Assembly: GCF_022376445.1 (NCBI RefSeq)
Contig: NW_025954998.1
Location: 248,001-312,000 of the forward strand
DNA from: Fomitopsis serialis
Taxonomy: Eukaryota > Basidiomycota > Agaricomycetes > Polyporales > Fomitopsidaceae
DNA: 64,000 nt
Direction: 5' to 3'
Part shown: piece by piece, positions 13,271-50,063 of the stretch
Position numbering within the stretch: position 1 is the first letter of the stretch
Layout: every line of letters begins with the position of its first letter
The notes under the pieces: model-generated
Database searches by the model: none
Told to the model about the DNA's origin: nothing
What the model saw: only the letters and a program-made list of their open reading frames with translations
Made by a program: the position numbers and the translations under genes

Positions 13271-13816
13271 ACATCGTTCATGATTGATGTAGCCGACAGT
13301 GCTGTATCGTTCATGAACGATGTAGCCGACAGTGCTGTATCGCTCATAAACGATGAAGCCGGCAGTTGTAGGATGCATCGTTTACGAACGATGTAACACT
13401 GTCGCATACATCTGCAGCTATGCAGATGTATGCGACAGTGTTACATCGTTTGTGAACGATGCATCCTACAACTGTCGGATGCATCGTTCATTAACGATAC
13501 AGCACCGCCGGCTACAATCGCTGCAGATGTATGCGACAGGTCGGATGCATCGTTCATGAACGATACAGCACCGCCGGCTACAATCGCTGCAGATGTATGC
13601 GACAGGTCGGATGCATCGTTCATGAACGATACAGCACCGCCGGCTACAATCGCTGCAGATGTATGCGACAGGTCGGATGCATCGTTCATGATCGATGCCT
13701 CCGACAGCACTGCAGTTGTATACGACAGTGTTACGTCGTTCGTGAACGATTTATCCTACAGTGCTACATCGTTCATGGACGATAAAGCCGATAGTGCTGT
13801 ATCTTTCATGAACGAT
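13271..13816. repeat. 33/66-bp minisatellite built on a 16-bp palindrome
   Basis: Palindromic cores occur at 13271, 13306, 13339, 13377, 13445, 13483, 13549, 13615, 13681, 13735, 13768 and 13801. Spacing is 33 bp in the outer parts and 66 bp for the four units from 13483 to 13681, whose 66-bp unit is nearly identical. The best cores read ATCGTTCATGAACGAT, a perfect 16-bp palindrome. Because 33 and 66 are multiples of three, both strands stay open; the repetitive peptide is probably not a gene. Confidence 0.85.
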
Positions 13817-13937
13817 TCATCCGCAAGTACTGCGTCGTGGTAACCATGTAATAGGGTTAGGGTCCACACAGGGAAAATGGTTGTCTTGAATTCCCTCCCA
13901 CAATGGGACTTGTCGCAGTGTGTCTGAGGTGGACCAC

Positions 13938-13953
13938 ATCGTTCGCAATCGAT
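13938..13953. repeat. Dispersed 16-bp palindrome site
   Basis: ATCGTTCGCAATCGAT, in the non-coding stretch between the minisatellite and the first small paralogue gene (about 630 bp upstream of its start). Confidence 0.6.
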
Positions 13954-14578
13954 GCGCCCATTAACATTAGAGTGTCAATAGCTACCATGATTCACCTCAG
14001 CTACCAATCGACAGAAACAGTTGAGATATCCAGTCCCATCTCTATTACCGTAGCTTGTGTCGTGACGTCTGACAGTAGTTATTACAGAAACCCATGATGG
14101 AGTCGGTTGAGGCTTGCTGAACGCTTGTCATTCGTAAAGACATACCCTCGTCGCAGCATCCATTCAGTCAAGATGTACTGTTCTGGTGAACCCACTGCCA
14201 GGTTCCGCATTCAATGGCGTCAACTTGTAAGATCATGCATAGAAACAAACTCCAGTAGTCGTTTTTAAGGCTTCAGGAAAGGCACGTCGGTTGTATCAAA
14301 CTCTATGTCTTTTTTGTCGCTGATGTATAGGCCATCGGACGCACCTTGTGATTCTCTCAAAATGATGGCCGGTGTGTCAGCGACCTTGCGTCATCATCCA
14401 CCCATCGGTATGCCGACACAATCACAGGAATCAATTGGAGATCACTGGATGCGAGCCTCGAGGTGCAGCAGGATCTGTCGGACCAACGTCCGGTTTCCCC
14501 CGTCGTTGACTTTTAACGACAGTGTGATTGCAACCAGGTCCATATCACTTCACCCCCCACTCTCTCCGAGCTGCTGCC
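13954..14578. other. Non-coding stretch upstream of the small paralogue pair
   Basis: No supported gene. A pyrimidine-rich tract (CACCCCCCACTCTCTCC) lies just before the start codon at 14579, as in many fungal promoters. Confidence 0.35.
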
Positions 14579-16784: not shown

Positions 16785-17859
16785 AAGAAATGGGTGGATG
16801 AGCTTGCAGTAGTAAACCTTCAAGTCTAAATACCTGGCGCGCTTCTGTCGATGTCGAATTCGCCCCACTTTCCATCTACAATCCGTTGTGTCGGTATGCA
16901 TCGTTCAAAGACGATACAGCAATTCATCACCATGTCGTTTCACATTCGTAGTACCACCCCGACATACCCTGGAGGATTCCGACACTGAGAGGGGCCACCA
17001 GGTGCCCTCCGTTGCCTTAGGCGACACTCCGACGTAGCGCAGCCGCCCGGTCTATCAATTCGACCGCAGATTTTGGGTTGAATCAAGTGACACGCTCTTC
17101 CTGAAGGCTCGGGTAACTTACCTGTCATGAAGGTAGACCATGTGATTTTGGAGTGGAACTGTGCCTGAGCACGCCATTTGGTGGTGACGCGTATCTGTCG
17201 GAGCGCTGTCCGGCGCGTATCAAGCCTGGATGGAACTAATCAGTGTCGCAAGGTCGGACAATGCGTCATGAGAGTCATTCTCATGTTGAATGGCCATTGT
17301 ATTCAGCTATGTCGCACAGAACATACATCGCACGACACGCAAACATGACACGTCGGAGTGGAATGAGGAACATCAGAATCATTTGATTGAGTGGATATTG
17401 TGTGTGACTTCTCCCGTCAAGACTTTCGATCGTGATCGATCGGGGATCTTTTGATTCAGTAAGCCTCTGATACGTGGATATATGACCGCCTCCACCCTCT
17501 GCAGTGAAAACGCACACCTTGGAAGATTGTGTGCTTGTATCAAAGTAGTGTGATTTATTTGCCAGGATCACATTGTTTTATCTACATAGCGAGGGCTTTT
17601 TAAGTACCGCACAAGCAGTGAGATCGCATTACAGATTCGTTTCGGATGTGACTGCTCCCGGTCAAGGGAATTTCTAGATCGCTTCTGCACCCGGCCAGTA
17701 GTCACATGCCTCAGCCCGGTTCTTGGTAACACTGCCTGCCTCCTGTGTGGCAGGCATGTCCGACAATCACTGGCGTCGTTCCTCTGTTGCACCACGACAC
17801 TATCTCTTGACGCCGAACTGCCCCCAGCCCCACTGCCCCCCTACTCGCTGCCCCTCACA
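16785..17859. other. Long non-coding stretch before the ParB-like gene
   Basis: About 1 kb without a supported gene; lower GC than its surroundings between roughly 17,260 and 17,600. It holds one palindrome site at 16,900 and is the upstream region of the ParB-like gene. Confidence 0.35.
16900..16915. repeat. Dispersed 16-bp palindrome site (degenerate)
   Basis: ATCGTTCAAAGACGAT; outer half-sites kept, one mismatch. Between paralogue 2 and the ParB-like gene. Confidence 0.5.
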
Positions 17860-20800
17860 ATGCCTTCTGCCCGTGGCAAAGCCAAAGACACCAGCGAGCG
17901 GTCGCGCACCAACAAGCGCGGCAAAAAAGCGCAGAATGCGACAGCGAAGGGAGCACGAAACGTCGCGGGTGGCACTGAGATTCCGCAGGACAGCCGCGCG
18001 CGAGACAAGGACATTAGCGAGGAGGAAAGCAAACTCTGGGACTCGATGACCGTTCGTAATTGCTGCTCTCCATCGATTCCATGTTTTCTGAGGGATATTA
18101 CCTAGACCGAGTGGGACGAAATCAGCCCGGCGAGGCGGCTCGAGTTGGATAGGAGGGCACGCGATGCGTTTCTGGGGACGATGAAGTTCGACATCATCGA
18201 GACGAAGACGGATGCTATCGTTCCCCGCTTCGGCATGTACAACGATCGGCCCCTCGACAGGGGAGCCATGTCCCGGCTGAAGGCGAACATCACGAACCGT
18301 CACGCTCATGGTTTCCAAACCGACTCTCACCTGATATTCGCCGTGGCCACGCGCGACCTCATTCGCGATCCAGCCCCTGTCGGGAGTGAGCTTCTCGGGT
18401 CGGACCTTCCGGAATTCGACCTCCAAGACAGCGTGGAGCCTCGGTCGGTACTCGCGCTTGCTGGACAACACCATATCGGACCGCAAACGAGCTGTACGCG
18501 AAATGGAGAAAGGAGCTCAGAGAGCGACGTGGAATGGCGACAGAGGATGACGATGGGTGTCCATAGCGGCATCAGAGGGAGCGAAGTCGTCGAGTGATGA
18601 TGTCGATCTAGACACCATGGATGATCTCGAACGTCGGATGGAGGAGGTACGATGGTGGGGTGTGCGATTGTACGACCTCAGTAAGCCCGCTATGTTAAGC
18701 TGTCCTCATGTCTTCTGACAAATGTCGCCACCGCTACAGAGAAGATTCAGTCGGATGAAGAGCTTGCGGATCATCTGTCGCGCAACGAGTCCAAGGTTCA
18801 ACACTCGGAGACGGAGGAAGAGTCGCTGGTCCAGAAGTTGAACCGAATCCGCAGCATCCTAGCAGACCTCGGAATGGCAGAGTTCATGAAGAAGCACCAG
18901 TCGCTCACCTTGTCGAAGCTGAAGCTGAATATCAACTCGTCGATGTCACGGATCATCATGAACGTCTACATGCTCCTCATGGTCCTCTCGATGACGCGAC
19001 ATGGGTCGCACTTTAGGGCTCAGCCGGAGTTCCGAGTGTCGTGGCTGAAGAACCTCAGCGATGCTCACGGGACGGTACGTATCTGACGCCTATACGAGAT
19101 CCGTGGCCTCATACAGATCTTCATGTCGCAGCTGCTTTCATGGATCTTCATACGACAGTCTGAACGCATGGCTTTGGTCGACTGCGTCTACACCGGGAGA
19201 TCTGAGCAGAGAGCCGACGCGACAGATGAGGCATCTCGCGCCGACAACCCCAGCAATGCCGAGAACGTCGGCGACATCGAGGTCGTTCGTGGCGACGCCT
19301 GGCCCTCTTTCCAGACAATGAGGAGTGCGTTGGGTACGTCCAAGTCGGTTGCCCCTTACCCCTACACTGCCGAGGAGCTGGCGATACTCGCTCGCAACTT
19401 TTCCCTGGGTGAACGACGATTCCAGGGCATATTCCACGACGACGCGATCATGGAAGCCCTCGACGATGCGTATGTAGACGCGTTCCGAGGTGTCGACAAC
19501 ATGTTTATGATGCTTGGAATCGACATGCCCGAGTATTGTTCCGCACTCGCCACCTACCGCATCGCCGTTGTGGCCCTCCTCCGCGAACACTTCCCCGTCG
19601 AGGACGCCGAGTTAACCAAGTCCTATCGAGTGCCCAAGGAGCAGCGCAGGCTTTCCATAGCGACTCGAAACTACGACCAGCTGCTCTCTCGGGTGCTCTA
19701 CAGTTTGTCGGAACGCGATGACGGCGGAAACTTGAAGCCCTTACCATTCCTCACGATCAGCGTCTTCCGGGACCTCCACAGGGCATTCAGCCAGACACCT
19801 TTGGCTTTCAAAGAGGTATGTCGCTCACCGGATATGTCACACCGACTCCCTCGCGGACTGCGGCATCGTTTGCGATCGATGTGTACCTCCCGACTATTAT
19901 CGGAAGCTTTGCTCGTATCGTTCGCGAACGATGCCGGCCCAGCGCCTCGCCGCTGTCTGGCCTGACTTTAATTCACGATGTGTTGTCCCGACGGAATGCT
20001 GATGCGCTGCCTGTGTCGCAGGTTGCTGGTTGGTTCGAGGGGCTCCATTGGTACTACCGCGGCTCGAACGCCGCAACGCAAGACTTCAACGACGCGACCA
20101 ATGCCATCTTCATTGCTGCGAACAGATGGAGGGCGGAAGAATTGAACGCAGCCCAGCATCATACTATCCTGGATAGGGTATGTCATCCACATCCATAACG
20201 CAGTATGACAATGTAAGCGCTCACGTCTTTGGTCTTTCTAGATTGCCGACGTATTCATATTGGGAAAGGCGCACCTCATGCCTGACCTCGAGCACAGCAT
20301 GTCGGACATCACCATCCATAGGCCGACAAACAAGCAGGCGCTCAAGGCGATCGTCGCGTCGGGGGCTGTGTATAAGAACAAACAGCTCATTCTGCCTAAA
20401 TCCGACTCTGTTGTCGTTAATCCGGCGGCGCTGAGGTTCTGGAACGGCATGGGTGGGCTGTACTCAATCACAACTCATCATAATGCGTTGCTACTCAAGG
20501 TCGGGGTTAAGCCCCTCCCGAGGAATGGGTATCCGACGGAGTATCCAGCCAATCCTTTGGGATACCGACTCATTCGCAGTGGCACCTCTAGAGACATCCT
20601 CCGAACGGCAACTAGCATGAAGGAAGTCAGGAGCTACGAGTGGCTGTACGCTGCGGCGGTTGTTGAGGATTCCATCATTCGCACCTATCGCACGAGCAAA
20701 GTCTTGGGCATCTTGCCCAGCAATCTACGGTTTCTCTTGCGAGAGGCGATGAATATCTACAGCCACGTCGGACAGCCTGACGACGACGACGATCCGTTTG

Positions 20801-21300
20801 CGACTATGGGGACCTATTTTGCGTTCTGGGACCAGCCCACGGAGCCTGACGACTTCGTAATGAATGAGGAGATCTGGCATAGCGTGACCATCGAGGACAT
20901 CGTGGAGAAAGTCGGATTGCTGCAGGTAGCGTCCAGCATGCAGCTGGAGCGAAAGCAGCTGTGCGACCTGGTTGCCACGCTCGAGGCCAGCCCCCTTGGA
21001 AAGTATCGTGTACCGGATACTGGGAACCCAAAGCGGACTGCACCGCTGTCGAGGGAGTGGTCGTTAGCTATGGATGCAATAGTACAGGTGCGCCACGACA
21101 CGTCCCCTCACAATGATATGATGACGACGTACTCTTCGTCGGTCGACAGGCAGCCATTCAGACATGCACCAGACGACGTCTCTGGAAGGAAGGAGAATCA
21201 GAGAGTTTGCCCTTCGACAGAACAACGGTAGATTACGAGATGCCATCGCTCGTGTCGGAGGTTCACACCCACAGAAAAAGCGTCGGGCCTATATTCAGAG
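17860..21300 (+). CDS. Long protein with ParB/sulfiredoxin-like N-terminal domain
   Basis: Start ATG at 17860 (Lys/Arg-rich N-terminus), exon 17860-18051, intron 18052-18105, then a region resembling the ParB/Srx fold: MYNDRPLDRGAMSRLKANI (an 'R-x-L' strand and helix) followed about 50 residues later by LALAGQHH, the usual G-x-H-R-type motif of this fold. The match is by motif only. Later exons: to 19074, 19117-19815, 20022-20177, 20242-21087 and about 21150-21300, in one frame at each junction; no other domain is recognised in these ~650 residues. No helix-turn-helix is evident. Two frame breaks: a duplicated AT near 18472 directly after GQHH, and one missing G near 18558. The intron 19816-20021 is 206 bp, about four times the local norm, and contains two palindrome sites. 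ParB-type proteins bind palindromes and NTPs in bacteria; here the role is unknown. Confidence 0.55.
19865..19880. repeat. 16-bp palindrome site in intron
   Basis: ATCGTTTGCGATCGAT within the 206-bp intron 19816-20021 of the ParB-like gene. Confidence 0.6.
19917..19932. repeat. 16-bp palindrome site in intron (perfect)
   Basis: ATCGTTCGCGAACGAT, a perfect palindrome, 52 bp after the preceding site in the same intron. Confidence 0.7.
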
Positions 21301-21361
21301 TAAGCCTTCCTCATTCTCGTGACGACCGTCTGGCTCATTTCAGGTGTAGCTTCATGGTGTG

Positions 21362-23089
21362 CTAGTGATCGATGACGAGGAGGAGAAAGCAAAGGCCAAA
21401 AAGAAGTCGGAGGCGTCAGGATCGACTAGCAAGAGAGAGGAGAAGTCCGCGACAAAGCCTACTGTCGCACCAGCGCAGGGATCCAAGTCGACGCTAAGCC
21501 CAGTGGCGACAACTCGAAGCCTGAGCCGATGAAGGGAAAGCGCAAGTCGGGGCCTCCCAAGTCGCGTGCCATCATCTTGGACAGTGACGAGGACGCTCCC
21601 TATGAACTGGATCCAGAGGTCGACGACACCTTCGACAACGCACTTGCGACGCAGACCTTCATACCCACTCCAGATGACGATGAAATCATGAGCATCCCAG
21701 ACAGTGAGCATGTTGAAGTACTAGAGGTGAGCGATTTCCCTCTACACTATTGGCAGCTCCACTGACGGACTGCATACCAGACACCGGCGAATGCGCCACA
21801 GGCACCCCGTCATGTCGAGACCCGTCCGACAAAGCCACAGCCCCAGGCCGATCTCCCAGTGACGCCTCCACGACGTGAGAACACGTCGGCAGGTGAGTAC
21901 CATTCCGCTGAGTGCTCATGGGCTTCACGTTACGTGTATCGTTTGCGAACGATGTGTCACCTTTCATACATTTTGTGCGATCCGATTCTCCGACATTACT
22001 TACACTGCGCACGATGCCTCTGGTGGCGCTTTCTGCCCATTACTGACTCCGTTGTTACTACAGCGGGACCTCGAGACAAGTCTTCCGGATTTCAGCCACG
22101 TAAGATGACGGGTTCATCGGGAACGTTTACGGTGTTGGAGCCAGGCAAGCCAGGTGCTCATTATTATTGCTGGTCTCATCCTTTGGATTTGGTGCGATCG
22201 GAGAATGTGGCGTGCATGAACGTACGCGTTGCAGGACTCTACGACTTTGATGCGCCGTCTACTGAGGAGCCTCCCAGTGCGGCTGCCATTGCACGGGTGC
22301 TACAGAGCGTGAAGGCGAGGATAATTCCTGTTGAGGGACACCGCCGTGAGCGAGTCCGTCGTACCATGGAATTGCGCATAAGGCTCACGCTTTCTGCTGT
22401 ATAATCTCCGCGACAGAAACTAAGCTGATGCCTGACCGTCTGTTTGCAGCTCGAAGGCTGCGGAGCCAGAGACGATCGATCTAGACGCTACGACCGACGA
22501 TGAGCCACCGCGGCCAGTGGAAAGAAAGGTCGTGAAGAACATGAAGCCCAAGGCTGACCTCTCTGCTAATGCCGATGCGAAGCCCTCTGCAGGAGGAGGC
22601 AAGAAGGCCCGCGACAGAGTACCTCCTCCAGCGCTGCGTCCGCCACCGCGACTCAGGCGTCGACATCATCGACCGGTCTGTTTTCACGTGATGACGCCGT
22701 TTAGCCCGGATAGCTTACACCCTTCAGTAGTTCCCGCCAAACGTCAATCCAATGCGGCGGATGCAGACGGTCGGGCCGAGAAGAAGGCCAAGGTGGCGGC
22801 CCCAGCGCCCCCAGGAAGTCGGCCGACACATCGAAGGCGAAGAACGCTGGTTCGGCTTCCAAGAAACCGAGCGCGAAGAAAACACAGGTATGTGGTCGCT
22901 TCCATCCATGCCGCCTTCGAAGCTAACCGAGATCAAGGCAAAAGTCTTCAGGATGATTCGGAGGACGAGGATGAATACGGTGCCAAGAAGTTCAATCCCA
23001 TCGTCAAGGGCGCGACGAAGCCGTCTGGAAGCCGTCCGCGTCCATCAGAGACAAGTGGGCAGAACCTCAAGATGGTTTCAGATGCATAA
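21362..23089 (+). CDS. Lys/Asp-rich C-terminal part of the ParB-like gene, or a separate gene
   Basis: Coding-like exons continue on the same strand: a charged exon from about 21367 (DDEEEKAKAKKKSE), one frame change near 21485, then KGKRKSGPPKSRAIILDSDED, an exon about 21780-21893, a long intron about 21894-22072 holding a palindrome, and an exon about 22073-22400 that looks folded (FTVLEPGKPGAHYYCW, then VRSENVACMNVRVAG). After about 22450 it is Lys/Pro/Arg-rich to a stop at 23087-23089. The basic, disordered composition suggests a nucleic-acid-binding tail. Whether it belongs to the ParB-like gene cannot be settled by eye; no clear start codon or promoter separates them. Confidence 0.4.
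21938..21953. repeat. 16-bp palindrome site in intron
   Basis: ATCGTTTGCGAACGAT in the ~180-bp intron starting at 21894. Confidence 0.65.
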
Positions 23090-23530: not shown

Positions 23531-25295
23531 ATGGATTCCGACAAACACAGCGAGGAGGACGTCGATGACAGGAGTGAGCCTCTGTCTCCCAGCGAGGTGC
23601 TCACCGCGTTGGTGGATGCTCCAGATGTGTACGTCCAAGCGGTTGTTTCGTCTGCGAGACACTACGACTAACGTCTCCACGTTCCAGCGTCGTTGCGGAG
23701 CAGCACATCAATCGCACTCTCAACGGAACCGAGGGGCCCTTCGACCTCGCCGATGTTCCCGACGCCATCAGCGCTGAGTCCAACATTCAGCAGAGCGACA
23801 TCTACAACACCATGTTCCAAGGCAACGACCCGATGGACAAGCTTACCGACTGGGAGCACCTCCCGCAAAAGAACCTTCGTCTGTCGGACCTGCGCAGGAT
23901 CTACGAAACAGGGAACGCCGAACGTGCGATGAGCCTCCTGAGCAAACGCATCAACCTGACGATCGACGACCACTATACCATCGACGCTCGCAGCGAGGAC
24001 CTCCTGTGGAACATCAGTCAGCATGCTTTGGACTTCTTCGCAGCGTCGTCGCTTTACCCCGGGCTCGACGCTGGCATTCCGAACGTGCTCATCGACCACA
24101 ATTGGATGGGTAAGATTGATCTGCTGAAGACGTTCTTCGCGTTCAAGGCGAAGTACTTCGACCCTGGCTTCAACTTGCACGGCCGGATGCTGTATATCGG
24201 ACGCGTCGGTACGCAGGATCTGTGGCTTGCGTTGCGTCCCCGAGAGCACTTCGAGGTCGATCCGACTGTCGAGGACGAGAGGCTCGAGGCGCTGGAGCGC
24301 AAATACGGGAAGAACGGCCTGGACACGCGCCTTCTTCCGCATCACGCGGAGATCATGATCCTATTCCTCTGCAAAATGCTGTCGCTCATCAACACCAAGG
24401 ACATCACCGTTTCGAGGGACTACGGCGACAGCAACGCCCGCAGAGACCCCACAAGCTACACGCAAGGGCGTGTACGAACGCTTGTGAGTGTCGTTCAGCG
24501 GCCATACGTCGTCCACAGATACTGACTACGTTTCGCTCCACCCTATCTCGCGCACATGTCGCTCACCGTCTCACGTCACTCCTGCATTGATCGCGAACGA
24601 TGTGGCCTCTACGCCGCCAGCCTGCACCTCACCATCGACCTCAATCTCGAAGAGTTCAGGGAGCTTTCTGGGCTCATTCACGACAACTGGGCGCGTTGGG
24701 TCGATTGCGCGCCCAAGGCGTGGAAGAAGGACGGGTTTATCACCGAGCACGAGCCATCTCTATCGTTTGTCGCTACGGCCAGAACGTCGCGCTCGCACGC
24801 GACAACATGCAGGCGACGGAGGAGTTGAACTGGCTTCGCGACCGCGACTACACCAAGATTCGGTATGTCGCATTCGCGATAGCATCTCACATTGAGTACG
24901 CAATACACTTTATTATGTGCTGTATCAACCTGACATCCGCCACCAGGTGCAGCGAGGTTGACGAATGGGTACCCCGCCCTGTCCGCGACGTCGGGCGAGG
25001 GCCCCCCTGTACCTATCCCATAACCCCCGTGACCGCGCGCTCGTGACCGACCTTGACAACCTTCCTCTTCGCGACGACGAGGGACGCGAGATCAGAGTTT
25101 ACGACTCGCGAGGCATGCGTGTCCCTCGCTTCCAGGTCGCTGACCCTCAGCGGTTGAAGAAGTGCGACGTCAAGATGAACCTTCGCACGGCGAACGACAT
25201 GTTCCAGCCTGCGTACGGCGACACCCTCCGCATGGAGGACTACGATGTACGTAGACGCGGTAACAGGCGGAGACGTGGTGCGCCCCGTCGTGGTG

Positions 25296-25342
<47 letters not shown>

Positions 25343-35620: not shown

Positions 35621-35636
35621 ATCGTTCGCAAACGAT
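35621..35636. repeat. 16-bp palindrome site upstream of unit C
   Basis: ATCGTTCGCAAACGAT, about 232 bp before the unit C start. Confidence 0.65.
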
Positions 35637-37493: not shown

Positions 37494-37886
37494 TATTGTT
37501 GGAAGAGCGGTTAGGGGGTGAGCTATCAAACACAACGGGTGAAAGTCGTCCGGGAAGTGTGGCGGGAAATAAGCGCTTTGTGCAAGACACAACAGACGCC
37601 CGTAGTCGACACCGCTGCGGTGGCGCACCTGGGCCACAATCTGTGTCGACTTCACTGGTCGGCTTGGATGTCGGTAACGGATAGCTGCGCGAAGTGTAGT
37701 ATAGTGACATTCCACATGCGCCGCATTGCATGCTAAGCCTAGATACGGTTGCTATACAATCCGTTCGAGCTCATTTGCTACTTGTTGCCTTTGTACGTCT
37801 TACACGTCCGATAATGTTACAATTTGATGACATGTTGGGGGACAGTACCCTTATAGCTACAATGCGTAATACACCTCCTTACAGTA

Positions 37887-39049
37887 CTACTCGTCGTTAT
37901 CGTATCCCAGTTCGGCTATACGGCGCTCACAGTCACGGAGGTTCCTCTTCAGCGTTGCCTCCTTCTCCTTCGCCGCGGAAAGCGCAACATTGGCACGTGC
38001 GAGTTGCCCCTCAAGCATCTCCAGCTTCATCGTATGCTTCGCGACGTACCGCCTGAGGGCATCCTCGCGGGTCTCGTCACCAGCCTGCGGAATATTGGGA
38101 CTGCGTACAACCTCACCAACCCCGTGGCCGATCGAGGATATGCCCTGCGCATCCGAAGACGCATGCGTCTGTCGTACTCTCTTGGGATGCGGGGGGCGGT
38201 GGCCGATTGAGGCCGCTTGCGCTTGAGGGGCGGAAGATGGACGTCGGAGTGCCGCCCCTGTGTCACAGCTAATCCAAATGTCGCAGGCCGAGGCACTGTC
38301 ACGACACTCGAGGGTTCATTGTCGGGCGGCGTCGCAATGGCTGTCGGGAATGTATGCGATGCCACGTCATCACGCTGCGGCCGCACGTCGACTTGTCGAA
38401 CACTGCACTGATGTGAATAATGGTATGTCGGTCATGGCCTCGCGACTCACTCACAGCGAACACCCGGCACCAACGAAAGACCCTGGAAAGTGCAGTCGCA
38501 CTGAGCCTTGACGCAGTTCCCACACGCGACGCTACTCCTCGGTTCGAAAGTACACCTTCGAGCAGATGACCCGGGCGCGAGGCATTGATCACACTAAAGG
38601 ATTGTCAGATACAATTAGATGCTCTTCCCCGTCGGCTCTATATGACAACGTACCACGACAAGCCGCGCCTTCATGACTCGCGCGAGAGCGGAGACATCGA
38701 CCGCAGATGTTGCGCTGGGGTCCACATCTTGAACGCGCCGGTCGTTTCCCGTGGTCTCGCTCATTCGAAGATGTTCCTGGACCCCGTCCGAGTCTTCTCC
38801 TCCCTCTCCGGAGTCGACCTCCGCCCCAGAACCTTCGTCTGAAAGCGGCTCACATGGATCCGACGACGAAGGTGAGTCGTCTGACCCTTCCCAGGGCTGG
38901 GCTTCATCGTTCTCTGTCCAGTCCTCGTCGCTGGTTTCTTTCCCGCCCTTCCTCGACGATTGACCTTCCACCGCCAGTCTTGTCTGTCGATTATCGGTGG
39001 TTCTGCTTCGGGAGTGTGTGACTGTCTGGTGGGAGCGCAGGTGCGACAT
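37887..39049 (-). CDS. Array paralogue E: variant Zn2Cys6-like cluster and coiled coil
   Basis: Start taken at MSHLRSHQ (39049). This copy lacks a recognisable WPEL block; its N-terminal exon is acidic and Ser-rich (DEDWTENDEAQPWEG). Cysteine module 38492-38593: CDQC and CGNCVKAQCDCTFQG, with nine rather than eight residues between the third and fourth Cys and one extra Cys. The C-terminal exon forms a clear coiled coil (VAKHTMKLEMLEGQLARAN onward) ending at 37887. A palindrome site lies 167 bp upstream of the start. Confidence 0.6.
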
Positions 39050-39215
39050 CGAGGAATGGTAAAGGTGTGTTAAAGCGATTGCGGAGGACTGGTGGACGAG
39101 TGTGGCTGGCTCCCGACGCAATGACCACGTGTCTCATCATTAGCGCTCGTGGCCCATTTGCGATATTCCCGGACTGCGACAAGGGGATGACATCGGCCGA
39201 CGATACGTCAGGAGT

Positions 39216-39231
39216 ATCGTTCGTGAGCGAT
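39216..39231. repeat. 16-bp palindrome site upstream of unit E
   Basis: ATCGTTCGTGAGCGAT, about 167 bp before the unit E start; one mismatch in the right arm. Confidence 0.55.
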
Positions 39232-39610
39232 CCGTGGGCTTTCAAGGCGAAAACTGCCTACATTCCACGCTCCCAAGTTGTCCGTGCTCTTGTCGCGTCA
39301 TTCACTCATCTTACGTGTATCCTCACAGCGAATGCTCATTCCATTCGCCAATGTCGATAATGTACGATGAGTAATACAGGTGAGATAAAACATGGGTCGA
39401 CAACTTCGACAACAGACGAGGTTTGCATAAATCGAGCGCACCACCTATGAACTTTCCCCGCAACCGATCATATCCCTGGCTTACGCTCCTTCGCCGCACA
39501 CGCATCCATCATCCACCATGCACGTCGCGACATGAAAGAACGGGTGCCGACATCGACGTAGACTGCGAGCGGGGCGTGTGCGATGGACCGAGGTCCGGTG
39601 GAGTGCACAG

Positions 39611-41212
39611 TCAGCGGTGCACGCTCGGCGATCCGGGCTGACTGCGATCACTTGCCAACTCCTCCGCCTCGTCCAACGTTGCGATGTACGCGCGCAAACC
39701 CTCGGCCTGATACTCCAGGACCTGCATCCGTGCATTGATGTGTCGGAGTTCATCATACGCAGCTTGGTACAACCTGGTGCCTTGGTATACGTCCATCCGG
39801 GTGCCGTTCGAATGCCTGACTTCAGCGGAGGAAGCTACCATTGCGATCGCCGTAGCGCATCTGGCCATGACACCTCCGGCTTGGGGATGCTGACTCGCCC
39901 TCGTCCTTCTTCGTCCCCCGGGATATCTTGCAAGACGTCGTCGTTTTGGACAGTATGTCGACCGCCGCCCACGGCCGCTGTCTCGGAACGGCTGCGACGA
40001 GGGCGTTTGGTGCGGTCAGACGGCTGTGGGCTCTCGCGGCCTTCCGCGTCTTCTCCAGTATCTTGTGGGGCTTCCACCGCCGTGTCACCCTTCTCCTCTT
40101 CAGGACGGCCAGCTGTCTCCTCCTCGCCCGTTTCGACTCCCGGAGCCAAGGTCACGGAGGGTCCATCCGTCGACGTCGCCGTGTGCTCGACCTCCGCGGG
40201 TCCCCCATGCGTGACGCCTGCATTGGGAGCCGCTTGCACCCCGTTCTCCTCATCAACCGTCGGTTTAGACGGCCCCAGCACTTCGACACGCTGTCGCTTC
40301 GCGTGGCCTGGATTGTGTGAGCCTGCATCGTAAAGTACTGATTAGTCGCACACACCGTCAGATGTAACATATCGCCGCTCTCCCGTGTTCCACGAACATG
40401 CCAGTTGGTTTCGAGGCACCGTGCACACTCCGACGCCCCCGCCTCTACAGTGCACTGCGCTCCACTGGGCAGCTCCATGCAGTTGTCGCACAGCTGTAGT
40501 CCAACGTCAGCGCGTGTGATAAGAGAGTGAGAACGTCGTCGCGTACCTGCTCGGATGCTGCGCGGAGCCTTCCCCAATCTCGCCCTCCTCCATGTCCGTA
40601 GCCTTTCGCTTTCCACTCGCTTCCCTCCTCATTGGCTCTGAATCTGCGTTGGCAGAAGGGGCTACCTGTTTGACTATTTTCACCTTCCTCCCCGGTGGTC
40701 CCGGTGGTCCGAACTTCACGACTGCTCCGTCGAGGGCCACGATCGGTGCGACCTTCTGCTGGTGTGTTGCAGCCTCGGGCCGTGGCGCGCGACGCTTCAT
40801 TTCAGACAGCTGGCGTCAGGTCGCAGTGCAAAGAACAGGAGACGTAACGTACCGCTCCTCTCGGTGGGTCGGTCGCGGTATAGATCACACTGTCAGTAGG
40901 GAATGATGGTCCCAACCATGCTTTCAAGTCTACGGGGCCCGCTCGTGAACCTTCTCATAGCGTCCTTCACTGCGGTCGCCAGCTCCTCAGCATGCGGCTC
41001 CGTGGGGTGGTTCCCTCGATGGGCGAGGTACAGATCCTATTTGGTCATCATTTCAGGCCATACGTCGCGGCCAGTAGGTTCGTCACACTCACCTGAAGCT
41101 GCTTGTACCCCACTATCCAACGGACCAACTCATCTCCTCCCTCCGGCACAGGATTGATCCGCAGATAGCGCATCACCTTCTCCACGGGGCTTAGAATACC
41201 AAGGTGCGACAT
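39611..41212 (-). CDS. Array paralogue F: cysteine-cluster and coiled-coil protein
   Basis: Start MSHLGILSPVEK at 41212; RINPVPEGGDELVRWIVGYK resembles the N-termini of G, H and I. Next exon: helix EELATAVKDAMRRF. A Lys/Pro-rich exon ends with SGKRKATDMEEGE, close to unit I (SGKRKATDLDHD). Cysteine module about 40400-40490: CDNC and CARC; the sixth Cys position reads Trp-His (NWHVRG), so the cluster may be incomplete. A Glu/Pro-rich linker carries RTKRPRRSRSE, and a C-terminal coiled coil (AAYDELRHINARMQVLE) ends at 39611. Confidence 0.58.
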
Positions 41213-41533
41213 GTCGAGATTGACGGGGAAGGATGAGAATGCAGGTCGCCCGAACGCGCGACTGCGACTGCTCGGGTATGAAGTGTGGCTTCGGCCTTGC
41301 CGTTTTTGGAGAACAATGCCACGTTTAGCGCCCGATCGGCTGATTAGCCGCTCGTCGTTCCTCGTTCTGTGGCGCACGAGGGAGTCGCATATGCAGGCAA
41401 AACTAAGTACGGAGCGAGATGTCGCGCGACCTTTCGTGTGAGCCACGCCACTCTGCAGAACTCATGACTGTATTTAAAGGCGGACGTCCCTAGGTACCTG
41501 CAGACATGCACTCCACATCGTGACGGTTGGTAC

Positions 41534-42808
41534 CTACTGTTTGCAATCTACCGGGTCTTCCAGCTCCGCCATAATGAAGCGGACTGCCGTTGCCCGTCTT
41601 TCCAATGTCGCGATTTCCCTAAGGGTTGCGTCGAGGGCCGTCATCGCGCATCGACGGGCCATTTCGATTCTTCGGGATCGTCGGGAATGGCCTCTAGGTA
41701 TACTACAGGGACCTGACGGAATGGCCGTGGGCTCGAGACGCGTTCGAGGCCACCCACTTGTGAATGGATCTCGTCCGGCTTCGTAGCGGTGTCGGAGCTG
41801 TGCGACACGGTGTCGCCCGCGCTCCCTAACGTGAGGTCTTGGGTGTTCCCTCGTTGGCAGCGCGCAGCACCTGGAAGCTTGGAGGGGACCCTCACCTGGC
41901 CATGCGCAATTGTCTCAGCCTAATTACAGCACGGTGAACGGTATTCTCACCATCATAGCTTTCTGCCGACATTGAGAAACCCTCCCACGTACACGGACAC
42001 TCGTCGTAGCGACACTTCTCGCACGTAGTACTGCCTTCCGCGAGATGGCAATGCATTATGGCCCCCATTTCCCCAAGCATCGATCACACTTGGCGGACTG
42101 GTGAGTCTGTCGCGCTAGCGTTCATGAAGCCGCTAGACTGCTTACCTTTCCTCTACGCTCGTATACTTCGTATGCGCGACTCACCATCTCGTCCACGTTC
42201 ACTTCTTCGTTTGTCTTCGTCGCCTGCATCGTCGCCTCATCGTCGCCTGCACGTCGCCTGCATCGTCGCCCATATGGCTTTCCATGTCGCGCCCCTTTCC
42301 CTTGGTGTCAGGTCGCCCTTTCTTGCTCCCGTGTGACCGCGTGCGTCTCTGGCGACCGCTGCGCGCCGGCCAGCGCGTCCGCCCCGCTGGGTGGGTGCCA
42401 TGCCTTCCACACTCGCTGGTGACCCGCGATTATTGGCAGGCCTATCGATAACCAACGCCAGGGCAAACTCCTTCTCCTGACGTTTAACAGCCTCGGAGAG
42501 CTCTGGAAAATGTTCGAGCACCCAGTCCCTGAGCTCGCCGGTAATCCTGTCCGCGACATCGTCCGTGGCCTTTCGTACCATCTGCCATATTGCCTCGTCG
42601 CGTGGCTGGGCCATCGTCCTCTGTTTGTATAGCACCTTGGTATCCTTTCGGTTATACGAAGTGGTGAAGAACATTCGTTGTACATGCTTACTAGGACGTC
42701 GTTGAACTTGTCGACCCATTGCGGCAATTGGGAGTCGTCGTCGGGCACTGACTTGGCCAAGAAACTGGTGACCCTCTTTGCAGGGTTATTGGACGACGGC
42801 TGGTGCAT
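41534..42808 (-). CDS. Array paralogue G: variant Zn2Cys6-like cluster, one-base frame break
   Basis: Start MHQPSSNNPAK at 42808. LPQWVDKFNDVLVSMY parallels F and H; LRDWVLEHFPELSEAV is this copy's version of the WPEL helix. Cysteine module 41991-42088: CDRC, then CEKCRYDECPCTWEG, fitting C-x2-C-x9-C-x8-C-x2-C-x6-C only if one base is missing in the GGGG run near 42070. The C-terminal helix (TLREIATLERRATAVRFIM) is a short coiled coil ending at TAG 41534-41536. Confidence 0.55.
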
Positions 42809-43907
42809 GATGATGATGGCAAAGCGAGACGGCAGCACCGAGCATTCATGCGCGTGGTCGACGTCACGTATCAGTGCCAGATATGATCTCCTGCGTGTGT
42901 GTGAAGCACGTGGGTTCGGCGATCGCGAGGGTTTGATCTCCGACCTGCCGGAGCGCCCGAGTATCAGCCCCTCCGCTATTACGCGCATGCAGCGTATCTG
43001 TTTCCGCTACAATCCTTGGTCCATCTAGCGTACACGGCACATCAATCGTAGTGGATGAACTGACGGAATTCGTGTTACCATTTGTGAGGTTCATATCGGT
43101 ATGCAAGCCACACACACGACGTCCATAGTGTTTGAAGTCGCACAGACGTGTTCACTCCGAGGTATGAGACTGTCGCGCCATCGCTATTTTCAGCAGTGAT
43201 AGTGCGAACTGCTTCGTACTTTAATGGCCTGCGTGGCATCAGTAGCTTGCCAGGTATATACTGGTCTGCCCACGCTCGCACTCAGACTGCAGACGTGTCG
43301 CGGCATTCGATCGCTGCCACAAGTACACACACCGGAAGCATCTGGGCCTTGTTCCCGTCCGCCTCAAACCGCTAGGTCTATACTGAGATTTGCGGTTGAC
43401 GCATGTTCAGAGGTCACCATACTGAGTCGCTGACGTGCGACACACGTCCCGCCAGCTATCGCCGTCCTTGCATCGTAATTTAACGTATCGACCTCGTCCG
43501 CCTTGATGCGATACGCCCCAACGGTGTATACCGGCTTAGGGCATTCGCCTCCTGTGCACCCAACACATTCAAAGATTCAGACATCCGGATGCCTATCAGA
43601 CTGGCCTTCCTGCGCGTCCTGGTAATTGATGTCCGGGTGACATGCAATCGCAGCATCAGAGCCATACACACCCTTCTCAGATCGTCGCTGGGCATCTGCT
43701 GCGCCTATTTGCCGTTGCGGTTCCTCTATATTGTCATATAATAATCGCCACGCCTTGAACAGCAGCACCCCAGCAGGGAGATATACACTGGATGCTTCGA
43801 ACGATACTTTTTGATACACATTGTCGAGCATTTTCGGCACCGGTGATCCCAATTCTAGCCCGTTATTCACTGATATTGTCGACATCCCTACTACCCTTCT
43901 TCCTATC
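42809..43907. other. Gap between units H and G
   Basis: About 1.1 kb. A minus-strand open frame at 43577-43930 has no recognisable motif and no family resemblance; I do not call it a gene. Confidence 0.35.
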
Positions 43908-45181
43908 CTAAATAGTTGCCGTACCGTCAACGTCCTCCATATCCTGGATAAGCATTTCCAATGAACGACGCTGATGCATCAATACAGCCATACGCGCGTC
44001 CAGGTGCAGGATCTCCTCTTTGGCAGCATAGTACGCGAACGTCTCCTCCCGTTCTTCCGGAGACGGTGCCTCTTGCTTCGACGTGTTCATTGTCTGCGAT
44101 ACGTCCCCACTGTGAGATTTAGCAAGCGCACGCTGTGGCGTCGAGGCCTCTCTGTCGCGGGGATCGGCGCCCCTAGATGCGACAAATGTCTCCGCCATGC
44201 TGACACCGACTTTGTGCGACGCGAAAGGGTGTTCATTCTCCTTTCGAGGTTTCTTCCCCGTGACCCTTTGGTCCGCTGAATGTCGGACGTTGAGAGACTG
44301 GATACATGTCGCTCCGTTTCCGACAATGTACGCACCTTCGCGCATAATGTCGCGCGGGCTCACGCGGTCCCACATGCAGTTCAACCTCTGGTCCAGACAG
44401 CTCTGGCAGGCTGTCGACCCCGGAGCGACATGACAACCGGCTTTTGTGGGCCGTGCCTTGCAATTGTCGCACTAAGAATGTTGGCTGTCGGCACAGCGGG
44501 GTGAACGGATCGCGATAGTCGACATACCTGATGGTAGGTATCCCCGCCGTCCTCCAGGCTATCATCGAACCCCACCTCCGATGCAGTGCGTTTGCCCGCC
44601 ACACGTTCCGTGCTTCGCCCGGGGAGCGCTACGTGGTTTGAATGTATCCTCTCTCTGACCGTTTCCCCGCTTGGGACAGAGTCGGCCTGCGCAGAAGGCC
44701 CTCCCTCGACGCCTTGTTCTGCTGTGATGTCGTGATCGACTGGCTTTGCGTCTCGCATCTCTTTCTCCGCATTTCTCTACGGTACGGTTACCTTCCTTCA
44801 AAAGTGTCACTGACATTGTGTAGGAGTAACGCACCTGCGCCCTGCGCTTCTCAATTGGGTGGGACATCCAGGGATACGTCGCGACCCGCCAAGTGTGGTA
44901 CTGCGGCGTTCCTTTGGCGTCCATCTCGTCCCATATGTGGTTCAGTGCCGCGGCTTGTCTAGCCTTGTCTTCCACACTGGTATTTGGCCCGCGACTCCGG
45001 GTGTACTCATTCTGGTAGCACTCGGCGGTGAGCTCAGGTAAGGCCGTATCCATCCACTCACTGATGCTCCGTTGAACTTCACTGTCCACTGCAGCAGATC
45101 CTCGCCCTTCGCTGGCATCTTCATGCGCTGCATCCACGCGATATACTTGTCAAGAGCAGATCCACTGGCAGTCGACGACAT
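43908..45181 (-). CDS. Array paralogue H: variant Zn2Cys6-like cluster and coiled coil
   Basis: Start MSSTASGSALDKYIAWM at 45181, with GEDLLQWTVKFNGAS as in G. Second exon: SISEWMDTALPELTAE, then ALNHIWDEMDAKGTPQYHTW, matched in unit J. Cysteine module 44376-44471: CDNC, CQSCLDQRLNCMW, spacing C-x2-C-x8-C-x8-C-x2-C-x6-C with the Trp two residues after the last Cys seen in G-J. The C-terminal exon ends in AAKEEILHLDARMAVLMHQ, a coiled coil closely related to F and J. Confidence 0.65.
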
Positions 45182-45752
45182 GGTGAGCAAGGGGAATGAG
45201 GTCGTGTGGACAGCGGGAGACTTGGTGGGCGGTCTGAGTCAAAATCGCAACCTGGCCGAGAGTCGCAATCCGTCTATTTGAATGCCCGACATCCGAGATG
45301 TGCACCCTAATCTCGTGCCGACCCGGGTGCAATTTGGCACAGCACATGCCAGGAGTATGTTGCGATCACCAAACTCGTATTTATCTAGATTGCGCACTGA
45401 CGTAGTACGTGATGCGTTCTGCCCTCGTGTCTTACCAGGCAATGTATTCTGTTTTCCTATCGCACGGGCTACCATTACACACCTGTCATGAAGGTGTTCT
45501 GGTCGTTGTGCGTCACTTAAAGCTTAGCTTAATACGCACCGCGCTACCGTCGTGGTGTATGAATTCACCCTCGGGCATCTCTCTCGCGGGCTGTCGTTGT
45601 GCTTTATATTGTCGACAGCTGCCCTCGAATATGTGTACGCAGTCACAGGCATGTTTGGCCACCCAGCGTTGGCGTATCGTTTCCTTCCGTGGATAGACGC
45701 TAAGATGCATAGAGGATGTGTGAAATGCTCCTTGACTAAATCCTCTAACCTC

Positions 45753-46973
45753 TCAGATGTCGGAAGCCCCCGGACGCTGAGCCAATTCGTTAACCAACCC
45801 TACCAAATACTCTTTCCGACGCGCGAGGCCCGCCAGACGTTCCTCTACACCTCTCAGCTCCTCCTCGCACACACGGTGTAAAGCCCTCTGCGGCACGTTA
45901 TGCAGACCAATTACCTCTGGCCTTGAGTCCCCGGAGCTCCCGATATGTCTGGTTGGTGCGTTTTGCATCTCTGTCGTTCGTGGAGCATCACCTCCAACGG
46001 GCGTGGCCAACGGTTCCAAAGTCCCCGTTCTCGAGGAGCTGATGTAAGGGGCCTGGCTGAGTACTCGTTTCTTCGTAGGCCGCAGCGCCCCTGTAGCACC
46101 CACTTCAGGACATCGGCTCAAGCCCCTCGTTGACCTTCGAGAAACAGTTACTCACATTCGCACCGAACGTCGTCCAGCGTCACGCCGCTCCACATACAGC
46201 ACGATGCGCTGTCCATGCACGGTTGGCATGATGATGATCCAGTGGCGACGTCGCATTCGCCATCTGTCTTCCCGGCCGTGCAGTTGTCACACTGGTTGGC
46301 CCACGTTATGAGGGCGTATGCGCGTGGTGCAAGTGCTAAACGTACCTCAGTGAAATCGTGGTCAAGGTCCGTCGCCTTCCGCTTGCCGCTGGTAGATTCA
46401 GTCGAATGAGGCTGATTTACTTTCGACGTCATGGATCTTGCGTTGTCAGCGTTTTCCAACATCATCACACTGGGACCCCTTCTTGGACGGCTTCGCCGTT
46501 CGTTTTCGTCTGTGCCAACCCCTCAGGACTTTGGCCGCTCGGTATCCCCTTCCCTGCGTCTTGCATCGTCTGTCGCAAAACTGTTATTCATGTTTGCTCC
46601 CTACCACACTCAGTCAAATCATACCCTAGCTTTCCATCGCTCAAACAGTTTCGCCGCGGCTGGGTATGTCGCCCTAAGCCAGGCGAAGAATTCCGGGCTT
46701 CCTCTTTCTGCAAAAGGCCGCATGATTTTGTCGTCGAAAGCGATTTTCACCCTCGCATTCTCGAGTCTTCGTTCCTCTCTTGAGCATCCCTTGCCATACA
46801 CGTCCTAATCTTGGTTAGATCTGAGCGCGGCTGTTCTGTGTTGTGCGACCCACCGTGGCCCACATCCATGTCTTCGTCCATATCTTCATATTCCTGTCCC
46901 CTGTGGGTACCGGGTTTCGCTCAAAGAAACCGAGGTATATGTCGGTCTTGGATCGCGGTTCCACACTCGACAT
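45753..46973 (-). CDS. Array paralogue I: variant Zn2Cys6-like cluster and coiled coil
   Basis: Start MSSVEPRSKTDIYL at 46973; ERNPVPTGD matches RINPVPEGG of unit F. Helical exon FFAWLRATYPAAAKLF. Then SGKRKATDLDHD (shared with F) and the cysteine module 46196-46291: CDNC, CQPCMDSASCCMW, spacing C-x2-C-x8-C-x8-C-x2-C-x6-C. C-terminal exon (46121-45753) ends in a coiled coil RVCEEELRGVEERLAGLARR. Confidence 0.65.
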
Positions 46974-47438
46974 GTCAGAGAAAAGCGGCGAGTGCGCCGG
47001 GCGGCGTGGTGTATGCGCAAAAGATCATAACAGCCACAGCTGGCCTCTTTGTTTAGTGGTTTCCATATAGGGTCGTTACCATAGGCGCCCGATGGCCTCG
47101 GACGGGGCATACAGTACCACCTGCCGCATTCGTGTCGCGTTGAGAACGGATCGTCGCGACATCTCCCCGTGGTCGAGCATGATTACGCGTCGAATCGGGA
47201 CTGTCCGCGCTGTGTCGACAACATCCCGAGGGAATACAGTAGTAAGGGAGAATACTCGCGCGACACCGATTGTCTAGGAACGATCTCACACGTCCTCATC
47301 AGGTCAACGGTACCCACCTCAAGGGAGAGTGGATATGCCTTGAAGCGTGTCAGCCCGTTTGGGCATGTCATGATTCATGGAATGTGACATAGCTATATGA
47401 CACCAGTCAAACGTCGGATATGTCCTCTAATGTGTCCT

Positions 47439-48505
47439 CTAATGGCCATCCATCATCAGTACCTGCAGTGATTTGCGCCGATGAGCGAGTACTTCCAGCT
47501 CGGCCTGAAGCCGGAGGATCTGGTCCCGTGCTGCATAGTACAATTCGGATGACCCCCTCCTGTCGGGAGTTGGGGAATGTCGGCGTGGAGTGGCGTTGCC
47601 GTTCCACATTCCTACTGGGTCTGTACGTCGCTCGCAAATCCTAAGGCTACCGTGCTTGACCGCCGCATCTTGGGCGAGATGTGTCGCGGCTAGCGTTGAT
47701 TTCTTCTCAGGTATCATGGGAGATGTTTCGACATTCTCGCCCTCCGTGTGACTTGTCTTCGACATGTCGGTTGTCGGAGCGGTTGAATTGTGAACTGTTA
47801 ACGCACTGAGTAACTTGCTGTACACGGGTATTACCTCATTTGAAGTCGTTCCGCTGGCCCAACCGCGACCACATACACATCAGGTTGTGGTCAATGCACC
47901 GCTGGCAAACGGAGGACTCCATGGCGACATGGCACCCGATCTCCGTCGGGAACTCTTGGCAATAGTCGCACTGTACAAATCCGACGTTAAGCCATTACAA
48001 CGATGGCGTTTAGTGCCCCATCCATACCTGATCCCAGCCCGACCCCGGATGGTGCTCCCTACTGTGGGAACTTGCACCCAAGGCTGGTGCTCTTCCTGAC
48101 TCGTTCTCCGTGCTTTTGGCGGTGGGGGGTGTGTCAGAGAAGGAGCCTGACTTTCCTATCGCGTTTGCGACGGCATCGGAGTCCACCTCCGCCGCCACTA
48201 CCTTCGCGATGCACCCGACAGGTGAGCTATTGTCTGAAGTTATGATTGATGCGGCCAAATTGACTGCAGATTGTTTGTGCCATTGTACTTCGCGTTGGCC
48301 CCCCCAGTAAAAATGTAGGAAGCGGACGAACCTCGTTCATTCGTCTCTCAAGGTTCTCGGTGATCCATTCGTATTCTCGATCCCGCCAAACGGCATACTC
48401 GAGCGTCGCTTTAGCATGAAGGGTGTCCCAGACGTAGTTCAATGCTGTAAGCAATCGTAGGCTGTCTCCGCCCTGTGTGGTGCCGTCGCGCGACTGCATG
48501 TACAC
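47439..48505 (-). CDS. Array paralogue J: variant Zn2Cys6-like cluster and coiled coil, N-terminus unclear
   Basis: The first recognisable exon (from about 48505) has ALNYVWDTLHAKATLEYAVW, the counterpart of unit H. A linker exon follows, then the cysteine module 47875-47970: CDYC and CQRCIDHNLMCMW with C-x2-C-x8-C-x8-C-x2-C-x6-C. The C-terminal exon contains ELYYAARDQILRLQAELEVL and ends near 47439. The first family exon (helix with the conserved Trp) was not found upstream, so this copy may be 5'-truncated. Confidence 0.58.
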
Positions 48506-50063
48506 GTGCTGTGCGTCGTCAACTGTCGAGTCGCGTCCGAATGACTTTCATGGCCTTACAGAGACGTCATGGAACTCGCGCGTCCATTATTTCAGCTTCT
48601 CCGTCTCATGGGGAATAGCGTGACTCTGTATCCAGGAGATTTAATCATTGAGGGGCGTGCTGGACAAGCCTGAGGACATCTAGAGGGTAGCGCGACGATG
48701 TGTGTGCCACACAAGGGCTCGATTGTCATCCGTAGGCCACTACCACTCTTAAGTAAGCAGTATTGCGAATTGACTCTGATATCTAATCGAGATATGACAG
48801 GAAAGATAACCGAGTTGCCGATAACGTTACGGCACGATCCAATAGCTCTGGTCAGCAAACGTCGGCGTGGCGATAGGTCAATGTGAAGCACGTCGGCCAT
48901 TACGTGCTGCTTTGCATAAGTCCTTACGAACCACACTATCAGAGGACTATCGGTGAAGCAGCCTATCGGTGGCAGCCCCCGCTTGCACCCCGCCCCCTCG
49001 AGTGACAATCATTCATTAACTGCGGCGATGAGGTGGGAGGGATTATATCCGGCGATGGAGATATCTGTGATGGATAGATGTGGCCGTAAAGGCCCATGTG
49101 GCGATTAACTTGGCCATTAATATGCGTTAGCCATGGAACATATCGGAATGTTGCTACAGTGGTGGGTATCATACACCATTCGATCGACCGACCCACGCAC
49201 CTGTAGCGGTACGACAGGTGGGTATCGTGTGCCGACATTCACGGATGGGGTTGCATCGATCGCGATCGATGCAGGCATTATCAGCCTTGGTGTGGAGATT
49301 CATACGTTTCCCGCTCGTTACATGATTCCTCCAGCCCCGCAGTCCAACCGCTAGTGTCGCGCCTTGCCAAGGTCGAATCTCAACGCTATTGTCCCATCGA
49401 AGTGCTGTCATGTACCTGCGTCACGCGCTACAAAGGGTTTGTACTGGTCGCAATGATGCTCCTTACCGTCCCGACGCCTACGTCTGTGTCGCGACATACT
49501 TCGAGAGTTAGGTTTGTCGCGACAGCACATATGGTTCCATTATATTGTTATAGTCCCCCGCCAACCTACACACCATTCTTGTAAAATGTATCATAAGCTA
49601 TTAGGCTGCCTACCATGTACAACCGTATCTCCCTCATACTACATAAGTGACGCTAGTTCATACGTCCGGTAACGTTGCTGTCCCCCCCGGCCTCTCGGTC
49701 TCGATGATAACTCTGTGGAATCTTTAGTACTGCATGTCAGCGACGCACCGTGGAAGTATATCCATTACCAGACCACCGCCTGGCACGGCTATCGAGCTCG
49801 CGATTGTCGGGATCCGACCGTGTCGACCACCTATAATGAAGTGAATGCCGTTAGTAAGAAATGTACCCAGGCAGACAAAGTCGCCCCCTTGCGGTATATC
49901 TTCTTGCAATGCATCTGGTGGATGATACCACACGTCTCTGTGGCCAAAACACGTCACTGATTCCGTCGGCCGCACGACACATGCGACACTACCCCACCTG
50001 CGACATCCCGGAATCTCATTTAGAAGTACACAACAGTTGATCCGATCGTACGTATGTGACAGA
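48506..50063. other. Non-coding stretch right of the array
   Basis: About 1.5 kb with no supported gene; holds the rightmost palindrome site (49255). Above it begins the R1/R2 gene pair. Confidence 0.4.
49255..49270. repeat. 16-bp palindrome site (perfect, rightmost)
   Basis: ATCGATCGCGATCGAT, a perfect palindrome and the last member of the family seen in the window. Confidence 0.6.

Follow-up and report, generated by a model that had tools for sequence, protein, structure and literature searches.

The 64,000-nucleotide stretch of Fomitopsis serialis DNA analysed here (the window; C312:248001-312000 in a genome of 66 Mb and 806 contigs) repeats a short palindrome many times within a single part of about 36 kb, which raises the question of what such a word is for. 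A preliminary description of the letters had proposed a family of 16-bp palindromes, ATCGTT-N4-AACGAT with T or A tolerated at the fifth base of each half-site, found in about a dozen minisatellite positions and at 14 dispersed ones and selected as a protein-binding site. We find that this family is real and that it belongs to a repeated element, whose own zinc-cluster-like proteins may bind it. The pattern ATCGWTNNNNAWCGAT (ATCGWT-N4-AWCGAT) showed 18 exact matches in the window, in the range 13306-49270, when 100 dinucleotide shuffles of the same sequence gave a mean of 0.02 matches and a maximum of 1. With up to two mismatches allowed, ATCGTT-N4-AACGAT matched 30 times compared to 2.63 expected. 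These weaker matches included one at 5513, to the left of the palindrome stretch, and three within it (29629, 47269 and 48823) that had not been listed before.

All 14 dispersed positions hold sites. Eleven of them are exact under the W pattern, and those at 16900, 24586 and 39216 carry one or two mismatches to ATCGTT-N4-AACGAT; the estimated dozen minisatellite sites correspond to 7 exact ones and to 12 at no more than one mismatch. The dispersed sites separate cleanly from the background when scored with a 20-bp matrix that was built from these same 14 sites, and that is therefore circular for them and not for other positions: they reached 22.1-32.7 bits, and the next-best score was 10.3 in 13.8-64 kb (minisatellite excluded) and 10.1 in 1-13.2 kb. 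The full 20-bp consensus reads RYATCGWT-YRYR-AWCGATRY. The spacer, previously taken as four free bases, is constrained, being YRYR in 13 of the 14 dispersed sites, and RY precedes the core in all 14 and follows it in 12. The pair formed by the fifth bases of the two arms is mismatched (A-A or T-T) in 6 of 14, so the half-sites vary independently. As had been observed, the surroundings of the dispersed sites are dissimilar, and the 15 bases on each side do not repeat a minisatellite unit.

The palindrome stretch represents one copy of a repeated, apparently mobile element, since its left end recurs at six places of the genome and the five flanks that were read differ. This left end lies at 12971..12996 on the plus strand, where the shared sequence begins with ATTATATAGTGTTTTCTAAAGGGGGT. 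An 18-mer from 12973 found exact matches at the six places; in the five copies with a left flank read, the shared sequence begins sharply at the position of 12971 and is preceded by different sequence in each, and the sixth copy (C247) is known from the exact 18-mer match alone. The copy on C251 extends from the left end to the contig end, with 98% identity to the window in its first 18 kb and 91% in the 10 kb that follow. The minisatellite whose units carry the palindrome (13260..13823) is located about 0.3-0.85 kb from the left end, on the inner side. Units have been gained and lost between copies, with 7 exact sites in the window, 22 in C251, 17 in C2, 5 in C50 and 4 in C56. Further inside are gene A (17860..23089, approximate limits, plus strand), which encodes about 1,100-1,300 residues with many introns and no known domain, gene B (23531..28720, approximate limits, plus strand), with about 1,470 residues in the draft model and unknown function, and an array of about ten genes on the minus strand (29719..48680).

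Confinement of the palindrome to one stretch thus applies within the window but not in the genome, where other copies of the element carry the same sites. Its distribution is not the uniform one that would have counted against the earlier view: ATCGWT-N4-AWCGAT had 103 genome matches compared to 7 for the reversed control. Among the 97 of these 103 matches that were listed, 91 fall on C2, C24, C50, C56, C63, C115, C247, C251 and C312, contigs on which the left end, gene A or array genes are found, and the other 6, approximately the number predicted by the control, on C135, C176, C224, C229, C472 and C805. A stricter core, ATCGWTYRCRAWCGAT, occurs at 35 distinct genome sites, many of them the same site in several copies, and never in the control; 32 of the 35 are on C2, C50, C56, C63, C251 and C312, contigs with the left end or array genes. 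Matches to gene A were found on five contigs (C2, C24, C115, C251 and C312), each of which has an exact palindrome, although the exact sites on C24 and C115 have spacers other than YRYR. When one cysteine cluster of the array was searched genome-wide, 29 matches were obtained, and the 15 strongest (E 2.6e-8 or better) are on C63, C115, C251 and C312, all with exact palindromes; the 14 weaker ones (E 1.5e-4 to 6.5e-3) are on other contigs, except one on C115. The preliminary description had asked whether the motif clusters with homologues of the genes of its stretch, and its distribution does follow gene A and the array genes. Gene B is more widespread, with 12 matches spread over nine contigs; among these, C312, C251 and C115 have palindromes.

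Where do the sites lie with respect to genes? Wherever the gene models permit judgement, the dispersed sites are apparently non-coding. Five are placed in long introns, and four of these five are in three introns (171, 198 and 206 bp) backed by public protein models. In gene A, the sites at 19865 and 19917 share a 206-bp intron (19816..20021, plus strand) whose join, K-E-V-A-G, agrees with the public models P0008 and P0009, and the site at 21938 lies in a 171-bp intron (21893..22063, plus strand) that agrees with P0008; the draft model of gene A, unlike the public ones, read through both introns as open frame. In gene B, the site at 26837 is inside a 198-bp intron (26719..26916, plus strand) whose ends agree with the alignment of P0001, and that at 24586 inside a putative 137-bp intron (24484..24620, plus strand) with an unconfirmed acceptor. 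The 18 other introns of the draft models comprise 11 of 47-64 bp and seven less certain ones of 75-129 bp.

Another five sites precede four array genes by 175-303 bp, as measured from start codons chosen by eye, and three of these four genes bear a zinc-cluster-like motif. On the minus strand, the site at 30842 (30840..30859) is 263 bp before the predicted start codon 30587, the pair at 33274 and 33345 (33272..33362) is 232 and 303 bp before 33050, the site at 35621 (35619..35638) is 240 bp before 35389 and that at 39216 (39214..39233) is 175 bp before 39049. To judge from the gene models, the remaining four are intergenic: 13938 (13936..13955), 633 bp before a predicted start at 14579; 16900 (16898..16917), 952 bp before gene A; 28862 (28860..28879), after gene B and before the array; and 49255 (49253..49272), the outermost dispersed site, which precedes by 584 bp a predicted start at 48679 with stops in its frame in the window.

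Comparison between copies indicated that the palindrome changes less than its surroundings. At the 13 sites that can be compared with C251, a single one of the 156 arm positions (12 per site) is changed relative to the window, and 66 of 1836 flank positions are (p 0.027; in this and later p values every base counts as independent). Within the more diverged half, 2 of 120 positions of the whole 20-bp sites and 60 of 844 flank positions changed (p 0.011). Two diverged relatives, C115 and C63, also keep some sites at matching intron and promoter places. The gene A of C115 is 48% identical to that of the window. In the 10 kb read from this contig, a site at 11745 (18.7 bits) lies in the same intron as 19865 and 19917 of the window, and a weaker one at 9116 (14.6 bits) lies about 0.6 kb before its gene A, as 16900 lies before gene A of the window; position 16474, in place of 24586, scores 5.5 bits, the background level, and nothing in these 10 kb corresponds to 21938. 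On C63, a pair of sites precedes, by about 217 and 383 bp, the start codon of a protein similar to that starting at 33050 (39% identity over the first 36 residues, E 5e-7 in a single comparison), and at the nucleotide level the 3 kb read around the pair do not match the window at E 1e-20. Selection on the palindrome as a protein-binding site is therefore supported, because the flanks of the sites differ, the spacer and flanking bases are constrained, the arms are conserved and the relatives keep some of the sites. The earlier interpretation thus stands in part: selection and the cysteine-cluster proteins as candidates are upheld, the ParB-like label is not.

As for the protein, the array cysteine-cluster proteins are a plausible binder. 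Eight intact clusters were read, seven in the window and one in C251, with the spacing C-x2-C-x8/9-C-x8/9-C-x2-C-x6-C, and some of them precede a tail that looks like a coiled coil by eye. A profile of these eight clean rows was compared with solved structures, and AlcR was the best match (E 0.055, below significance); LAC9 and two PUT3 sequences appeared lower in the list, so that four of the seven matches are Zn2Cys6 regulators. The likeness to Zn2Cys6 proteins is suggestive and not significant. It comprises the six cysteines (C-x2-C ... C-x2-C-x6-C), the paired half-sites and the best profile match. Canonical Zn2Cys6 spacing is C-x2-C-x6-C-x5-12-C-x2-C-x6-8-C, with a first loop of 6 residues, and the typical half-site is a CGG triplet. 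Unlike these Gal4-type proteins, the array clusters that were read have a first loop of 8-9 residues, which departs from the canonical spacing, and the half-site here would be ATCGWT. One array protein, searched as a query that included eight leading residues not in the sequence, had no homologue in the protein collection at E 0.01.

We consider evenly balanced the proposal that zinc-cluster-like proteins of the element itself bind the palindrome as a dimer and would thereby address the element copies and keep their genes active. A homodimer is suggested because the paired half-sites fit one. In this model, a dimeric Zn2Cys6-like protein encoded by the array would recognise the palindromes across element copies. 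The five sites located 175-303 bp upstream of four array genes would serve as promoter elements and place the array under its own control. Through the sites in long introns and in the minisatellite close to the left end, the protein would come to cover the element along its full length and protect it from silencing by the host, as VANC does in VANDAL elements. Such self-addressed regulation is proposed because the arrangement of the sites matches that of VANDAL and VANC in Arabidopsis. According to the available excerpts of two studies (PMC5735166, PMC10398659), the VANDAL motif is concentrated in one family and placed in non-coding DNA, upstream of genes and in introns, it has been multiplied in tandem repeats with gain and loss of units, and related families have other motifs. 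The Fomitopsis motif is similarly enriched in its element and rare elsewhere, as the genome counts given above indicate, and it occupies non-coding regions that include introns, one of the four being putative, and tandem repeats. It differs in being fungal, in being a 20-bp palindrome instead of a directional nine-base word, and in that its sites outside the minisatellite are mostly single and not dense; anti-silencing would here be an analogy. Pfam scans of selected exons and of proteins of relatives returned no VANC-like match, and no search was aimed at VANC homology. Promoter control is the firmest part of what we propose and anti-silencing the bolder one. In its boldest form, the proposal would have a giant fungal element evolve a VANC-like self-recognition independently of plants: the element's own zinc-cluster proteins would bind the 20-bp palindrome wherever it stands in introns, promoters or end repeats and free all copies from silencing, with the host spared since the word is nearly absent from it. 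We put this forward tentatively, as a possibility that is less than probable.

Several observations weigh against the proposed self-addressed regulation. The roles of the palindrome in binding, expression and methylation are all read from sequence, and the left flank, which has no sites, is as rich in CpG as the element, no methylation footprint being seen. Six of the ten predicted array starts lack a palindrome within 500 bp upstream; one of these six is preceded by a site at a distance of 584 bp, and for the other five even 1,200 bp of upstream sequence contain none. Moreover, no cysteine cluster was read in the gene starting at 30587, one of the four array genes with an upstream site. The Zn2Cys6 match is weak, both for AlcR at the E value given above and in Pfam, where one of the four scanned array pieces gave a Zn_clus match, at 8 bits when the cut-off is 21. 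In the genome, 6 of the 103 matches have no assigned place, 3 of the 35 ATCGWTYRCRAWCGAT sites are on contigs of unknown content (C176, C472 and C805), and the gene B relatives on six contigs showed no palindrome in the 3.2-3.6 kb read per match (best score 5.6). Counted over whole 20-bp sites, the conservation between the window and C251 is borderline (4 of 260 positions changed, flanks 66 of 1836, p 0.052). The palindrome network is also thin in C115, which has just two exact sites on 68.8 kb (1581 and 11747), neither with a YRYR spacer. Apart from these observations, a motif of the C115 type, ATCGWTGTYRAWCGAT, gave 27 rows at no more than one mismatch compared to 11 for the control, with no clustering on C115.

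Other explanations of the palindrome have to be weighed against the same evidence. The sites could be promoter elements only, read by a transcription factor that either the element or the host encodes, with those in introns serving as enhancers and with no role in silencing or chromatin. The four array genes with sites 175-303 bp before their predicted starts would fit this, as would the pair about 217 and 383 bp upstream on C63. Yet four introns (one of them putative), the part downstream of gene B and the minisatellite close to the left end hold sites as well, the majority of the array starts (six of ten) have no site within 500 bp, and near restriction to the element speaks against a host factor with many host targets; we judge a pure promoter role rather unlikely. 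Alternatively, a transposase could bind the palindromes as subterminal repeats needed to excise or insert the element, in the way in which the TnpA protein of En/Spm binds subterminal repeats. The position of the minisatellite about 0.3 kb inside the left end and the variable number of its sites between copies agree with such a function, which is made improbable by the 14 further sites that are distributed over a 35-kb interior, some within introns and others ahead of genes, and by the exons scanned (a selection), in which no transposase was recognised; the right end is beyond the window.

Partition or spreading sites for a ParB-like protein were suggested by the size of the palindrome, since parS sites are 16-bp palindromes, by its occurrence both clustered and dispersed, and by a G-Q-H-R-x-R stretch of gene A that we take to recall ParB. 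The ParB-like label that gene A had received found no support. An exon and the full protein of a relative gave no ParB match in Pfam, in NCBIfam or, by profile search, among solved structures; Pfam gave none at E up to 10, a setting at which the HMMER filters still drop most weak matches, and a two-sequence profile found an unrelated regulator (E 0.97) among solved structures. Placement before array genes would be unexplained as well, so that partition is a very improbable function. The self-complementary arms and four-base loop could instead form an RNA hairpin, with the palindrome acting as a stem-loop in transcripts. We regard this as the least probable of the readings, because the fifth arm pair is broken in 6 of the 14 dispersed sites, sites occur upstream of genes as well as in introns, and the window contains no match to an Rfam family at its gathering score; the independent variation of the arms at that base agrees with two DNA half-sites read by a dimer and not with an RNA stem. 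The dispersed sites could finally be a passive relic, pieces of the minisatellite scattered by chance insertion and decay, as the presence of the same palindrome within its units might suggest. That origin is hardly credible when the 15 bases around each dispersed site do not repeat the unit, the arms are conserved, the spacer is constrained and relatives keep some sites at matching places.

Comparison with other mobile elements did not assign the Fomitopsis element to a known type. Like Starships, it is a large, gene-rich fungal element. The captain of a Starship is a tyrosine recombinase (DUF3435), and no captain-type gene was recognised in the exons and relatives' proteins scanned, which did not include all exons; Starships, moreover, are described from Pezizomycotina in the excerpts available. 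A TET/JBP gene was considered as the anti-silencing gene of the element and was rejected: the whole genome has 71 TET/JBP domain matches, none of them in the assembled parts of the element copies. Expansions of this domain are reportedly found in mushrooms along with TET-bearing transposons. Specifically, no match was found on C2, C24, C50, C63, C115, C247, C251 and C312, a result that covers the sequenced parts, most copies being cut by contig ends, and the one match on C56 is about 19 kb away from the element, beyond its left end. In this the element is unlike the KDZ and Plavaka transposons of mushrooms, which carry TET/JBP dioxygenase genes that bear on cytosine methylation, according to an excerpt of PMC12730594.

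The surroundings and the other genes of the element gave additional observations. Between 5708 and 12970, long open frames that by appearance resemble a Gypsy-type retrotransposon are interrupted where the element starts, and two similar adjacent genes of unknown function, at 14579 and 15926, lie just inside the left end. Gene A of the copy on C2 is split in its coding region by about 3 kb of extra DNA (C2:600293-603459). The gene A of the window is without single bases that C251 has, and between 13841 and 41120 dozens of positions show such a gap, including some in 23.8-27.8 kb, a part almost free of substitutions. These gaps are probably long-read assembly errors, and the reading frames of the window are unreliable for that reason. 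Family members of gene B, with no known function, occur in Suillus, Pisolithus, Pluteus and Amanita (Agaricomycetes). Six of its seven relatives bear a precomputed Pfam label, PF26608.1, which a Pfam scan of four of them did not return, and a search of gene B against solved structures gave nothing useful. Variants of GTCGATGTYGAACGAT recur on C39 and C46, on C39 every 10-15 kb, perhaps as a repeated gene.

The right end of the element is not within the window, where a separate repeat, R, begins at 55271. This position was evaluated as the terminus, as similarity to C63 and C279 stops there and that to C797 stops 77 bases earlier, and it was rejected because C192 shows the separate repeat R starting at this point and C50 and C555 agree by coordinates. 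Repeat R occupies 55272-64000 and includes a 173-bp satellite at 55493-58737; its left edge, CCTATAACTAG, was also read in C192, located by coordinates in C50 and C555, and found about ten bases later in C3. Between 51700 and 58800, over the end of the element part and the satellite, the observed/expected ratio of CpG drops from about 1.1 to 0.0-0.4, with TpG/CpA raised. The zone looks like decay of methylated cytosine and may have other causes. CpG depletion as a methylation footprint of the palindromes was discarded, since the palindrome domain is CpG-full but the left flank equally so, and only 51.7-58.8 kb is depleted.

No description of this element family emerged from literature searches that covered the element, the host and zinc-cluster proteins encoded by elements. 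If the proposal is true, sequence-specific anti-silencing of transposons would have been reached twice, through seemingly unrelated proteins, and would not be a peculiarity of plants. A defined 20-bp address together with a small set of candidate proteins would then be available to study how mobile elements of eukaryotes recognise themselves, and it might provide a tool for chromatin targeting in mushrooms. Even under the modest reading, in which the palindromes would constitute an element-wide regulon, the Fomitopsis element would still represent a family for which those searches found no description.

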